Positions 10,649 through 15,552 of a stretch of DNA of 64,000 bases are shown here, one piece after another. Below the pieces are notes generated by a model, which was not told the origin of the DNA, did not search any database, and saw only the letters and a list, made by a program, of their open reading frames with translations. Within the stretch, counting starts at the first letter, position 1; every line of letters begins with the position of its first letter. The position numbers and the translations under genes are program-made. Source of the DNA: Halobacteriovorax sp. HLS (GTDB taxonomy: Bacteria > Bdellovibrionota > Bacteriovoracia > Bacteriovoracales > Bacteriovoracaceae); NCBI RefSeq assembly GCF_004006665.1, contig NZ_QOCL01000009.1, positions 124,001-188,000 of the forward strand, in the 5' to 3' direction.

Positions 10649-10689
10649 GCTACTACAAATACGATAAAGCTTTGACACTTTTTAAGACA

Positions 10690-10719
10690 TTCTGTCAAAA
10701 CGGAGTGCTTTTGACAGAA
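10690..10719. promoter_or_regulatory. Inverted repeat with embedded -35-like TTGACA upstream of the GH3 operon
   Basis: TTCTGTCAAAA and TTTTGACAGAA are perfect 11-base arms around an eight-base centre (CGGAGTGC). No T-run follows, so it is not a standard terminator. The right arm contains TTGACA, the -35 consensus, 90 bases before the GH3 start, but no good -10 lies at 17 bases. It could be an operator for the TetR-type regulator encoded at 15049-15552; that link is speculative. Confidence 0.4.
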
Positions 10720-10808
10720 ATCCACTAAATCTGTTCATAGAACAAAAAGACACTCGAAATATCTTTGCCTATAAATAGTCCATACATTTGACTATGAGGA
10801 GCAAAGAT

Positions 10809-12341
10809 ATGAAAAATTTAAAATCAAAAATCGCGTGTATTTATTTAAGAAGTTTACATGGTATTCTTTTAGCAGATCAGAAAGAGGTTACTAACCTACA
10901 AAATACTAATTACAAAAAACTAAGAAAGTCTCTTGATGGAACTAAGGTTAGTCGAAAGTTCGGCCTAGATAATCTTGAATCCTATAAAGAATATGCAGAA
11001 CACTTTAAAGTTAGAGAGTATGATGATTTCAAACCATTTATTGATGCTCATGTTCATGGCGCAACAAATGTTCTATTTAAAAAAGATGTTCTCTATTTCG
11101 GACTAACATCGGGAACTTCAGGGAAAGATTCTAAAAAGGTTCCTTATAATAAAGAGATGATTTCTTCATTTCAAAAAGCTCAGAAATATTTAGCGGCAGT
11201 AATCTCTCACGAAGTAAAGGGATTAGATTTGTTAACAGCAAGTCGTTTATCATATGGTTCATCTCCTATTACATATGAAGAAGATGGAATGAGTTTTGGT
11301 TATATCTCAGGAATACTCACGGCAAAAACACCTGCCTCGCTAAAGAAAATGACGCATCCATCTATCGATACTCTCTCTATTGAAAATTGGGAACATAAAA
11401 TGAACGAGATTTATGAGCAAACGATCAATGTAGATCTCAAAGTTGCTTCAGGTATTCCTACATACCTAATCTCAATCTTTGAATATGTTCTTGAGAGAAC
11501 AGGGAAGAAAACAATTTCTGAAATCTGGCCAAATCTTGAAACTGTTATTTATGGAGCAACAACAATTGATCAATATAGAGATAGGCTCAATGAACTTGTT
11601 GGGAAAAGATTAAATTACTTTGGTATCTATGCTTCTACAGAGGCTCCAATTGGAATTGGAATTAATAATGCTAAAGATGAGAAACAAGTCTACACATTTC
11701 ATCCTGAATTAGTATTTACTTTTAATGAGGTCGAAACCCTTGATCAATGTGGAATAGGGGAGTTAGAAATTGGTGTTGATTACTTTGTAAATACAAGCAC
11801 GCCTAATGGCTTAATAAATTACGCGATGAAAGATATCATTAGAATTAAATCAGTTAGTCCTGTTCTTACTTTTGAAGTTTTAGGTCGGCAGGGAAGTGGA
11901 ATAAACTTGGCTGCAGAGAAAACTACAGATGAACATGTTTTGGATTCAGTTGTAGCTTTAAGTAAGAAGATTGGAACAAATGTTGATCATTACTTTCTTT
12001 CACCTTCAATAAAAAATGGTAAACATTGCTACAGTTGGACTATCTTTTCCGATGAATTAAATAATGGGGCAAGCTCAACTGAATTAGAAAGTCTTATTGA
12101 TCAAATTCTATGTGAGAATAATTTGGATTATGCTGACTGCAGAGAAGATTCAATAATCGAATCGCCTGTTGTTACAATTGCTCCATCAAATTTTATCAAA
12201 GAATATTTTGATCTTTATAAGAATAAAGGTCAGTTTAAAATGAAGACCGTCTTCGGTTCTAGTGATGATTTTCAAAGCTTTTTGAATAACTCTATTCCGA
12301 ATTTACAAAGTTATTTAGGTAGTGTGGCATGTCAGTTGTAG
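10809..12341 (+). CDS. GH3 family acyl-acid amido synthetase (adenylate-forming)
   Basis: 510 residues from the ATG at 10809, preceded by AGGAG seven bases upstream. GH3 enzymes belong to the ANL superfamily: they adenylate a carboxylic acid and transfer it to an amino acid to make an amide. The phosphate-binding motif LTSGTSGKDSKKVPYNKEM, the NYFGIYASTEAPIGI block and the C-terminal GRQGSGINLAAEK hinge region match GH3. Plant GH3s conjugate jasmonate or auxin; bacterial substrates are mostly unknown. The last 13 bases overlap the LysE-like gene, and a C45 Ntn-hydrolase follows, so acyl amide making, transport and processing may be linked. Confidence 0.88.
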   Translation: MKNLKSKIACIYLRSLHGILLADQKEVTNLQNTNYKKLRKSLDGTKVSRKFGLDNLESYKEYAEHFKVREYDDFKPFIDAHVHGATNVLFKKDVLYFGLTSGTSGKDSKKVPYNKEMISSFQKAQKYLAAVISHEVKGLDLLTASRLSYGSSPITYEEDGMSFGYISGILTAKTPASLKKMTHPSIDTLSIENWEHKMNEIYEQTINVDLKVASGIPTYLISIFEYVLERTGKKTISEIWPNLETVIYGATTIDQYRDRLNELVGKRLNYFGIYASTEAPIGIGINNAKDEKQVYTFHPELVFTFNEVETLDQCGIGELEIGVDYFVNTSTPNGLINYAMKDIIRIKSVSPVLTFEVLGRQGSGINLAAEKTTDEHVLDSVVALSKKIGTNVDHYFLSPSIKNGKHCYSWTIFSDELNNGASSTELESLIDQILCENNLDYADCREDSIIESPVVTIAPSNFIKEYFDLYKNKGQFKMKTVFGSSDDFQSFLNNSIPNLQSYLGSVACQL

Positions 12342-12931
12342 GTCAAATTCTTTGTACGGTAGCTTTAGGCATTTTGTCTACGTTACCATTAGGGCCAAGT
12401 GGATTAAGTATTGTAAAATCTTTTGCGAGTTGTGGAATACGAAGAGGGATTTACTTACTTGGCGCCCTAGGTGTTGTAGAGATATTCTATCTATGTATTT
12501 CGTTAACGCTTAGAAGTCGTGGAGTATTAGAGCTCACAAGTTCAGTCGAGATTCTATTAACTTCGATATTCGGTCTATTCTTACTTCTTTATGGAGTAAG
12601 TACATATAGAAGTAGAAAATCTGAATCAACACTTAAAAAAAGTACATTTAAGAAAATTCTTTTCATGTCTTTAATGAATCCAAGTTTAATTATTTCGTAT
12701 CTTGGTCTAATTATTTTAATGGATAAGTCATCTGGAGGATATACTGCAGCACCAAGAGTTTTACTTCTTATTAGTGTATTTCTTTTGAGTGTCTGGGGAA
12801 CTCTTACAGCTTTAGGTCTTATTGCACGCTTGAATAATGAATTTCTTAGCAATCATATGAAAAAAATAAACGCAATTATTGGTCCTGTCTTTTTTTGTGC
12901 GGGATTAACAACACTATTTTCAACTTTTTAG
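12329..12931 (+). CDS. LysE-family-like membrane exporter in GH3 operon
   Basis: 200 residues with about six hydrophobic helices. The N-terminus STLPLGPSGLSIVKSF keeps the PxGPxG signature of LysE/RhtB exporters, and SLMNPSLIISY in the middle matches the second family motif. The start overlaps the GH3 gene by 13 bases and the next gene begins 11 bases downstream, so this is the middle gene of a three-gene operon. By context it may export an acyl-amino-acid or similar product of the GH3 enzyme; the substrate is inferred only. Confidence 0.75.
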   Translation: MSVVGQILCTVALGILSTLPLGPSGLSIVKSFASCGIRRGIYLLGALGVVEIFYLCISLTLRSRGVLELTSSVEILLTSIFGLFLLLYGVSTYRSRKSESTLKKSTFKKILFMSLMNPSLIISYLGLIILMDKSSGGYTAAPRVLLLISVFLLSVWGTLTALGLIARLNNEFLSNHMKKINAIIGPVFFCAGLTTLFSTF

Positions 12932-12942
12932 AGGAGAGTTAG

Positions 12943-14958
12943 ATGAAATATATATTATTAATATTATTACTATTTACTGGCCTACAAATACAGGCGAGTG
13001 ATGATCATTCTTTGAATTCAACTTGTAAAGTACAGGCAAAAGATGGAAGTCAAACTCACTATATCTGTACAATTAAAGACAAAAAAATTCATTTCTTAGA
13101 TATAAATGGAACCATGAAAGATGTAGCCTTTTATCACGGAAAATTTCTATCCAGTGAGATTAAAGATGGTGTTATTTCTTCTGTAATGAAGCGTAAGAGA
13201 GAATCATTTGCAGCTCTTGAAAAAAAAGAAAGAGAATCATTTGAAACAATATTTAAATGTATCAAAGGAAGATATAAGAGAAGTTTAGAAGATAGTTTCT
13301 TAGAAGAGCTCGAAATGCTTGCAAAAGGAGCAGGGATTGATAAGTCGCAAGTTTTGGAAGCAACTCTAATGATTGAGATGTCCAGCTATGTAGACGCATT
13401 AGAAGTGAAAATGAAGCAAAATTCAAAGAAGGCCACTATGGAACTAATGTCCCAGTGTGGAGCTTCAATCATAGGTAAGAGTATCTTTAGCATACTTAAA
13501 AAAGTTACTAAACCACTAAGAAAGTTAAAAATGGGCTGTACTGGATTTGTTGCTGGTGAAGGGTTTACTAAAAATGGTGAATTTCTTCATGGGCGAAATT
13601 TCGATACAGGGTTTTTAGGAGTTTTTGATAAATACCCTGTCATTCTTCGTCATACACCTAAAAAAGGTATCCCTTATATTGGAATGAGTACTGCTGGTCT
13701 CCACTATAGTGGTGGGATTACTGGAATGAACGCTCGGGGAATTTCAGTGTCAACACATGAGCTTAGAACAACCAAAGTTCGTACCCTTTATAGTGCGGCG
13801 AGATCACATCATAATTTACGTCATGGTATGCGAAAGAAAGAAAAGTTTGGTGTGATAGCTCCTTATATGGCAAATATGATTGTTAAAAATACGACTTCTA
13901 TTGATCAAGCTGTAAAACTTCTAAAGAGATATGGTCACTTTGGAGCATGGACATTTCTAATTTCTGATAGCAAAACAAATGAGACTGCAAGTGTTGAGGT
14001 TTCAGGTGCGATTGTTAGAGTGGCGAAGAGAACAAAGGGGGCCATTTCTCAGGCAAATCATTTTAGACATAAAGATACAGCTAGATATAACTTTGAATAC
14101 TCTGTAAATAAGAGTCTAGAGTCTAGAGCAAGAATTTTACATGTAGATCAATCCTTAGAAAGATCTAAGGGTTCGATTGATGCTCAGTGGGGAATTGATT
14201 TACTCTCAGGTCATATTGATCATTATATGGGAATGCGAACTTTTGGAAGAACTGTTTCTAAAGTATATACATCTATGAGTCATGTTGTTGATTCCGCTTC
14301 AAATAATTTTTGGTTTTCTCTAGGAGAGAGTTTTCCAACTAATTATTCAACCTTTCTTGGTATTCATGTTGACTTTGAATCTAAGGATAGGTTCTTTTCA
14401 TTTATATCTCAGACAAGAGCGCATGAAGAGATTAGATCTCAAATGCCATTTTTTGAGGACCTGTTAAGAAACTACACTCTTGCTTATATGAATAATAGGG
14501 ACTTTTCTCAAAGTACAGAGAACCTAAAAAAGACTATTTCTTTTTTGAGTCATAATACTCAAATAGCGGGGGAAAATAATTTTTTCGATTTTCCATCTTT
14601 AATTATGAAATCAAGGCTAGGTTTAAAATTATATGAGAAGACACAAGACAAACTTCTTCTTCTAGAAATTAAGAATGATCTTCTCTCAATAAGAGAGCAG
14701 CACTTTGAAAGTTTACATACTTATGAACGTTCTCAGGTTCTAAGAGATCTCGCTATCATTGAAGACCTTGAGGGCGAAAGAGATAGGGCCGCAAAACTAT
14801 TTAATAAGTCTTTACTTGAAGTTAGCCAGCTCATTTCTACTTATCCTTCTCACCACTTTATGTGGGTGTATATTGCTGAGCTAAAAGTCTATAAAAAGCG
14901 CGGATTTACGAAATGGGATTTAAAAGGGCTAGACCTTCACTTTGCAACAGCTGAATAA
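12943..14958 (+). CDS. Secreted C45-family Ntn-hydrolase/acyltransferase (AAT-like)
   Basis: 671 residues with a signal peptide (MKYILLILLLFTGLQIQA) and a strong GAGGAGAG ribosome-binding site. C199 in KMGCTGFVAG is the likely N-terminal nucleophile after autocleavage, followed by FLHGRNFD (residues 215-221), a signature of penicillin acyltransferase-like C45 enzymes. The roughly 180 residues between the signal peptide and C199 form a long prosegment. The C-terminal 200 residues look helical and TPR-like. C45 enzymes make or break N-acyl amides, which complements the GH3 ligase two genes upstream. Being secreted, it would act in the periplasm or outside. Confidence 0.78.
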   Translation: MKYILLILLLFTGLQIQASDDHSLNSTCKVQAKDGSQTHYICTIKDKKIHFLDINGTMKDVAFYHGKFLSSEIKDGVISSVMKRKRESFAALEKKERESFETIFKCIKGRYKRSLEDSFLEELEMLAKGAGIDKSQVLEATLMIEMSSYVDALEVKMKQNSKKATMELMSQCGASIIGKSIFSILKKVTKPLRKLKMGCTGFVAGEGFTKNGEFLHGRNFDTGFLGVFDKYPVILRHTPKKGIPYIGMSTAGLHYSGGITGMNARGISVSTHELRTTKVRTLYSAARSHHNLRHGMRKKEKFGVIAPYMANMIVKNTTSIDQAVKLLKRYGHFGAWTFLISDSKTNETASVEVSGAIVRVAKRTKGAISQANHFRHKDTARYNFEYSVNKSLESRARILHVDQSLERSKGSIDAQWGIDLLSGHIDHYMGMRTFGRTVSKVYTSMSHVVDSASNNFWFSLGESFPTNYSTFLGIHVDFESKDRFFSFISQTRAHEEIRSQMPFFEDLLRNYTLAYMNNRDFSQSTENLKKTISFLSHNTQIAGENNFFDFPSLIMKSRLGLKLYEKTQDKLLLLEIKNDLLSIREQHFESLHTYERSQVLRDLAIIEDLEGERDRAAKLFNKSLLEVSQLISTYPSHHFMWVYIAELKVYKKRGFTKWDLKGLDLHFATAE

Positions 14959-14971
14959 TTCTGAATACTTA

Positions 14972-15006
14972 GGCTCAGTCTTGTACTGAGTCTTTGTTCT
15001 TTTTTC
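14972..15006 (+). terminator. Rho-independent terminator of the GH3/exporter/C45 operon
   Basis: CTCAGT and ACTGAG pair around CTTGT, and the stem extends by one G-T and one G-C pair (14972-14992). The T-rich tail TTTGTTCTTTTTT follows. It lies 14 bases after the C45 stop and separates that operon from the TetR gene. Confidence 0.8.
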
Positions 15007-15048
15007 ATAGCAATTTGTACTAAATTTGTTTTCATCATATAGATAGGC

Positions 15049-15552
15049 ATGAAAGATTTTAGTAAAAAAGAGCTCGTGTTTTTTAAAATCTGTGACAGTG
15101 TACTTTATCACGAAGTCATGAAAGGGCATTTAAAATGGTCTTTGTCAGATGTTTCTAAGCAGGCCGATGTTACACGTTCTCTAATATACTATTACCTTGG
15201 TAAGGAAAAAGTTGATATTGTTCATGAGTCTGTACTCTTTATGCTCGATCTGTTCTTCAATACTTCTGGCGAAAATAAACTCGGGGTTAGAGATCGGATG
15301 AAGAATGTGTTAATTCACATGAAAGAAATGCCTCACTTATATCTATATTATATTAGTGAAAGGTCTAAAGATACTAAGTATGGGCGACTTATCCAAGAAA
15401 CAGAAAAGAACTTAATAGTATATCTTCAAAAAGAGCTTGGGCTTAGCGAAGTTGATGTAATGAGATTACTTATGCTAAATCTTGGAGCTGTCTCTTTTCA
15501 GCTCGACCCTTCAAGGGTAGATGAGATTTACTCAATTGTTCCGGCGAATTAG
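15049..15552 (+). CDS. TetR/AcrR-like transcriptional regulator
   Basis: 167 residues, short for the family (usually 190-220). Residues 25-50 form the helix-turn-helix (WSLSDVSKQADVTRSLIYYYLG), where the TRSLIYYYLGKEK recognition helix is typical of TetR proteins. The rest is helical and would form the ligand and dimer domain. It lies behind the terminator of the GH3 operon, so it is probably transcribed separately. It may control that operon or itself. No ligand can be inferred. Confidence 0.75.
   Translation: MKDFSKKELVFFKICDSVLYHEVMKGHLKWSLSDVSKQADVTRSLIYYYLGKEKVDIVHESVLFMLDLFFNTSGENKLGVRDRMKNVLIHMKEMPHLYLYYISERSKDTKYGRLIQETEKNLIVYLQKELGLSEVDVMRLLMLNLGAVSFQLDPSRVDEIYSIVPAN

Follow-up and report, generated by a model that had tools for sequence, protein, structure and literature searches.

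A conserved GH3–LysE–C45 operon with a TetR-type operator in Bdellovibrionota: a candidate pathway for synthesis, export and processing of an N-acyl amino acid

Our analysis supports the view that three adjacent genes in the window (the whole stretch of 64,000 nucleotides that was analysed, from a 3.84 Mb genome assembled in 16 contigs), encoding a GH3 ligase, a LysE-type exporter and a secreted C45-family Ntn-amidase, constitute one conserved functional unit with a TetR-type operator upstream. We favor, at a probability of roughly 55%, a TetR-controlled conjugate–export–process pathway in which an N-acyl amino acid would be made, exported and then processed. Such a pathway would join three large bacterial families that are still mostly uncharacterised, and would give each of them a testable substrate, namely what the preceding member produces. 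No description of the trio was found in the literature searched. The statement in the sequence-only reading that no such bacterial system had been described therefore stands for the trio in that literature, although one bacterial member of the GH3 family, OlsH, has been described as producing an N-acyl amino acid (PMC12493201).

Organization of the locus

The coordinates of the open reading frames (Table 1) confirm the initial observation that the three genes overlap or lie 11 bases apart, and the terminator noted after the C45 gene is likewise present as a stem-loop with a T-rich tail. The 11-bp inverted repeat reported ahead of the first gene is exact and has no second copy in either the window or the genome, but the operator unit consists instead of two tandem 27-bp palindromes.

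Table 1. Features of the operon in the window, and operator positions in Bdellovibrio UBA4095
Feature	Position	Strand	Remarks
Operator 1	10672-10698	.	TTGACACTTTTTAAGACATTCTGTCAA; exact TTGACA-N15-TGTCAA
11-bp inverted repeat	10690-10719	.	Facing inner half-sites of operators 1 and 2
Operator 2	10711-10737	.	TTGACAGAAATCCACTAAATCTGTTCA; 2 mismatches; orthologous site kept upstream of GH3 in relatives
GH3 ORF	10809-12341	+	ATG start; alternative TTG start at 10788; 510 aa
LysE ORF	12329-12931	+	200 aa; 13 nt shared with GH3 end
C45 ORF	12943-14958	+	671 aa; 11-base gap after LysE
Predicted N-terminal nucleophile Cys199 codon	13537-13539	+	Invariant residue
Intrinsic terminator	14971-14993	+	Stem-loop with T-rich tail; closes three-gene unit
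TetR-like regulator ORF	15049-15552	+	167 aa
UBA4095 operators, GH3/TetR	C10:161752/161794		
UBA4095 operators, C45	C5:6028/6069		
UBA4095 operator, LysE	C11:210719		

The encoded proteins

The GH3 product is a cytoplasmic acyl-acid amido synthetase. It matches Pfam PF03321 with 92.8 bits (E 2.9e-26; cut-off 23.6), its adenylation motifs (LTSGTSGKDSKK, YASTE, YAMKD and GQFKMKT) are intact, the ATP motifs and conserved C-terminal lysines are retained, and plant amido synthetases are the best matches to its predicted structure. Filing it as OlsH was dropped, as the OlsH model NF052613 returns 163.6 bits (135–183 bits for relatives), far under the curated cut-off of 620. Plasmid carriage was also dropped; plasmids gave only distant GH3 proteins at 20–26% identity.

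The second product shares with the LysE/RhtB amino-acid exporters a Pfam LysE domain (PF01810) above the cut-off (E 8.6e-8; 32.3 bits versus 25.6), and its hydropathy profile shows several membrane helices. Unlike those exporters, it belongs to a fast-evolving branch tied to GH3 and C45, and its scores for all named exporter equivalogs lie far under their cut-offs.

With respect to the third product, sequence and structural model together identify a secreted, predicted autoproteolytic Ntn-amidase or acyltransferase of the C45/AAT family. Its scores exceed the curated cut-off of Pfam PF03417 (AAT/C45; E 7.3e-10) and that of the NCBIfam model C45_proenzyme (NF040521), and its layout comprises a signal peptide, a propeptide, an Ntn domain beginning at Cys199 and a helical C-terminal extension. 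The nucleophile following the propeptide and the R/N/D motif are kept, Cys199 being followed by GRNFD. In structural comparisons the model (mean pLDDT 79.5) gave Z scores of 32 to isopenicillin-N acyltransferase and 25.5 to NAAA and acid ceramidase. Most of the mature Ntn chains listed, among them those of NAAA, acid ceramidase, penicillin V acylase and bile salt hydrolase, align with the model from residue 199 onward; by sequence, the match to NAAA and acid ceramidase (C89) is weak (E 0.51). Isopenicillin-N acyltransferase, NAAA and acid ceramidase all act on amides between a carboxylic acid and an amine.

The C45 protein thus resembles the C45/AAT acyltransferases (isopenicillin-N acyltransferase, insect Tan) as well as NAAA and acid ceramidase in its Ntn fold and GRNxD motif and, by prediction, in a cysteine nucleophile freed by self-cleavage and in amide substrates. 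It differs from them in being only ~14–17% identical in structural alignments, in its Sec signal, in four further invariant cysteines (28, 42, 106 and 172), in a C-terminal helical extension (~170 residues) that closes with an invariant T-x-E, and in being fused to LysE in one genome. The T-x-E terminus (window positions 14938–14955 and orthologues) is present in 17 of 17 sequences and is preceded by F in 15. Free C-termini are seldom conserved in this way, and this one may extend to the active site or to a partner.

The family assignment of the TetR-like protein is weaker than those of the other three. Its match to Pfam TetR_N (PF00440; E 0.053) reaches 13.7 bits, below the cut-off of 24, and an N-terminal match to AcrR has a value of 5e-4; the helix-turn-helix core V-x-R-x-LIYYY-x-GK is invariant in relatives. 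No orthologue was found in the near-complete G003 genome (L037), though two operators precede GH3 there. A role of the locus in anti-phage defence was dropped, as a weak helix-turn-helix hit was all that turned up for it.

Conservation of the gene set

Of 369 Bdellovibrionota genomes, 27 carry the GH3 clade and exactly these 27 carry the C45 clade, membership being defined by profile searches at E <= 1e-160 for both (the next matches stand at 1e-68 and 1e-115). These carriers span 10 genera and five families; 14 belong to one genus, and the 27 are hence not independent events. GH3 and C45 share one locus in 25 of them, with differing flanks. The order GH3–LysE–C45 is retained in G004, G013, G017, G001 and G003, with TetR downstream of the trio in the first three, while in Bdellovibrio and its relatives TetR lies upstream in divergent orientation; the genes flanking the trio vary between genera. 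In G044 the C45 gene has been relocated behind a divergent TetR, and G051 lacks LysE at the trio locus. A mirror-tree comparison of the GH3 and C45 distance matrices gave r = 0.95. A single scan of 84,980 species yielded 10 confirmed GH3 relatives, each titled Bdellovibrio, Pseudobdellovibrionaceae, Bacteriovorax/Bacteriovoracaceae or Deltaproteobacteria. The sequence-only reading had named an unconserved gene order, or lost catalytic residues in GH3 and C45, as grounds for abandoning its proposal. Gene order is conserved in relatives and the motifs of both enzymes are intact there, so neither objection applies.

A shared operator

The sites upstream of GH3 have the form TTGACA-N15-TGTCAA over 27 bp, and mostly occur as two in tandem, commonly 12 or 15 bp apart. 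With at most one mismatch, the operator is found upstream of GH3 in 26 of the 27 genomes (46 sites), compared with an expectation of 0.1 genomes and a maximum of 2 in shuffled sequence; the remaining genome, G348, has GTGACA-N15-TGTCAC, a symmetric change. Reading TTGACA as a plain −35 box is not preferred, since every lineage conserves the paired half-site at a constant N15 spacing, and no good −10 element was seen at 16–18 bp from TTGACA in the upstream sequences compared.

The operator also precedes genes that lie apart from the operon. In G044 a second perfect copy stands before the C45 gene, which is transcribed separately there, and in G373, where C45 lies on another contig, a one-mismatch site stands ahead of it with a spacer that scores poorly in the site model. 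In Bdellovibrio UBA4095 the GH3 gene (with TetR), C45 and LysE occupy three places, each with an operator (Table 1), out of eight such sites in that genome, and the dispersed LysE aligns with the operon LysE proteins of Bdellovibrio. By our estimate, sites before both C45 and LysE would arise there by chance with a probability below 1e-6. This retention of operators by dispersed genes is the strongest evidence for one shared function of the three proteins. Operator and co-occurrence statistics together lead us to reject chance or artefact, and a regulon defined by the operator sequence is well supported. In the window's own genome, the operon holds the only convincing site.

Outside the trio, the operator occurs 51–77 bp upstream of phaZ, the gene for an extracellular mcl-PHA depolymerase, in four Bdellovibrio genomes (kdesi, G161, G164 and G167). 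Across these genomes the site hardly varies, kdesi differing by one base, and the flanks differ; the kdesi product matches NF050057 above its cut-off. A phaZ (Bd3709) mutant of strain HD100 has been described, and the enzyme frees hydroxyalkanoic acids from prey PHA (PMC4834554). A two-mismatch version of the operator precedes phaZ in G182. Among genomes that lack the trio, a G173 homologue of phaZ, 57% identical and perhaps a paralogue, lacks the operator, and no phaZ was found in the stretches examined of G174 and G176; neither phaZ nor the icd marker was found in those of G171 and G180. The phaZ–operator link was seen only in Bdellovibrio, and not in the window's genome.

A further perfect operator, the only other one in G051 (G051:C17:66260; L088:1501-1527), lies 46 bp before an O-acyltransferase-like gene, between it and a divergent alpha/beta hydrolase gene. 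The best NCBIfam matches of the acyltransferase-like product are OlsF and GlsA, both below cut-off; these enzymes O-acylate N-(3-hydroxyacyl) amino acids. The phaZ and G051 sites point to N-(3-hydroxyacyl) amino acid chemistry, and neither constitutes proof, because the site model fails to separate single operator matches, these among others, from background. Other single matches were not accepted, being indistinguishable from background in the same model; they include the G061 C47 match and a perfect site in G017 (G017:C1:1463936; L082:1501-1527), which lies ~100 bp before a gene for a secreted YkuD-domain L,D-transpeptidase and may be due to chance.

A fusion of exporter and amidase

In G348, LysE and C45 are joined in frame as a protein of 811 residues. 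Residues ~1–180 correspond to a LysE domain that matches the L080 LysE at 31% identity (E 2e-14), an assignment made by the match to operon LysE proteins, the Pfam LysE model giving no score there. The last LysE membrane helix leads without interruption into the mature portion of C45 at AVAA-EAPFEC, so that C45 would sit on the exporter's outer side. The fused reading frame could conceivably stem from a sequencing error that deleted a stop codon.

Proposed pathway and alternatives

In the favored pathway, GH3 would activate a free carboxylic acid with ATP in the cytoplasm and couple it to an amino acid; the acid we infer is most likely a fatty acid, perhaps 3-hydroxylated and of medium chain length. 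The LysE-type protein would then carry the N-acyl amino acid (or a lyso-aminolipid) across the inner membrane, in a presumed outward direction. Following predicted self-cleavage at Cys199, C45 would attack the amide in the periplasm, either by hydrolysis or by acyl transfer to another acceptor. The TetR-type protein, as the putative binder of the two 27-bp palindromes, would keep the unit off until its presumed ligand, the acid or the conjugate, is bound. The sequence-only reading had suggested that the three proteins make, export and process an N-acyl amino acid or related signal. Amide synthesis, export and processing is supported as an inference by the LysE::C45 fusion, whereas the acid and amino acid partners, like the purpose, stay conjectural. 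Several points weigh the pathway down: the GH3 score below the OlsH cut-off, the fast divergence of LysE and a LysE family known for amino acids rather than lipids, the operators of G003 without a TetR orthologue, the single case of the G051 acyltransferase site, and the confinement of the phaZ link to Bdellovibrio.

As to purpose, the regulon could answer hydroxy or fatty acids derived from prey, with GH3 tagging the acid, LysE expelling it and C45 removing the tag once outside, which would let the amino acid be reclaimed. This reading is possible though on the unlikely side. Plant GH3 enzymes inactivate acids through conjugation, TetR control together with an exporter is typical of efflux systems, the fusion puts cleavage at the exit, and phaZ carries the same operator in Bdellovibrio; this link was not seen in the window's genome. 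Of a hitherto undescribed amino-acid shuttle in predatory bacteria for such acids, freed from prey for instance by the PHA depolymerase, combining cytoplasmic conjugation, LysE export and C45 deconjugation at the exit under one TetR repressor, we are rather doubtful. We are similarly hesitant about amino-lipid synthesis, in which GH3 would make an N-(3-hydroxyacyl) amino acid, LysE would flip it and periplasmic C45 would add or swap a second acyl group, giving a membrane lipid resembling ornithine lipid. We know of no C45 enzyme that acts as an O-acyltransferase, but the C45 fold is closest to an acyltransferase, the G051 operator precedes an OlsF/GlsA-like gene, and OlsH offers a precedent (PMC12493201). 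Across the 12 genomes tested, an OlsB-type acyltransferase domain is also present in 8, which counts against this reading, and an OlsB/OlsF domain is absent from the window's genome, G003, G004 and G283, which favors it; the cassette has no OlsI/OlsA-like gene.

That the product is instead secreted as a signal or surfactant that C45 would switch off, we consider improbable: the gene anatomy would be the same and known bacterial metabolites include N-acyl amino acids (PMC8433624, PMC12479983), but no receptor, density-type regulation or signalling-specific feature was found. Three unrelated accessory enzymes merely sharing a TetR-controlled promoter would be in keeping with the breadth of each family, yet one-to-one co-occurrence, retention of the operator after dispersal and the fusion make this very improbable. 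Under the favored pathway, an N-acyl amino acid or amino lipid tied to phaZ is to be expected in Bdellovibrio, apparently also in the laboratory strain HD100.

Comparison with known systems

The closest characterised bacterial GH3 enzyme, OlsH, uses ATP to join free fatty acid to the amino acid, giving N-acyl ornithine (PMC12493201). As in the OlsH/OlsI pathway of Singulisphaera acidiphila (PMC12493201), a GH3 enzyme would here make an N-acyl amino acid, and its gene shares an operon with that of a putative acyl-processing enzyme. The partners differ, being LysE and a secreted C45 rather than OlsI (an alpha/beta hydrolase) and OlsG, as do the TetR-type operator and the GH3 score, which at 164 bits stays below the 620 bits required for OlsH. 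Plant GH3 enzymes with amidohydrolases, insect Ebony and Tan, and bile acid conjugation with bile salt hydrolase offer a second parallel, in that one enzyme forms and the other cleaves an acid–amine amide. Unlike in those pairs, the two enzymes here belong to one bacterial operon and to different compartments, with an exporter between them.

Other GH3 and LysE genes

The window's genome contains a second, distant GH3 gene (G000:C16:73162-74019; 515 aa), which adjoins an ORF resembling an FG-GAP/VCBS repeat protein, with no trio partner seen in the 3.9 kb examined. The window itself holds a second LysE-like gene at 686–1306 (Pfam LysE 2.6e-19), directly after an ORF with a sub-cut-off match to the final part of the AstE/AspA deacylase domain, so that positions 107–1306 present another exporter adjoining an N-deacylase-like gene.
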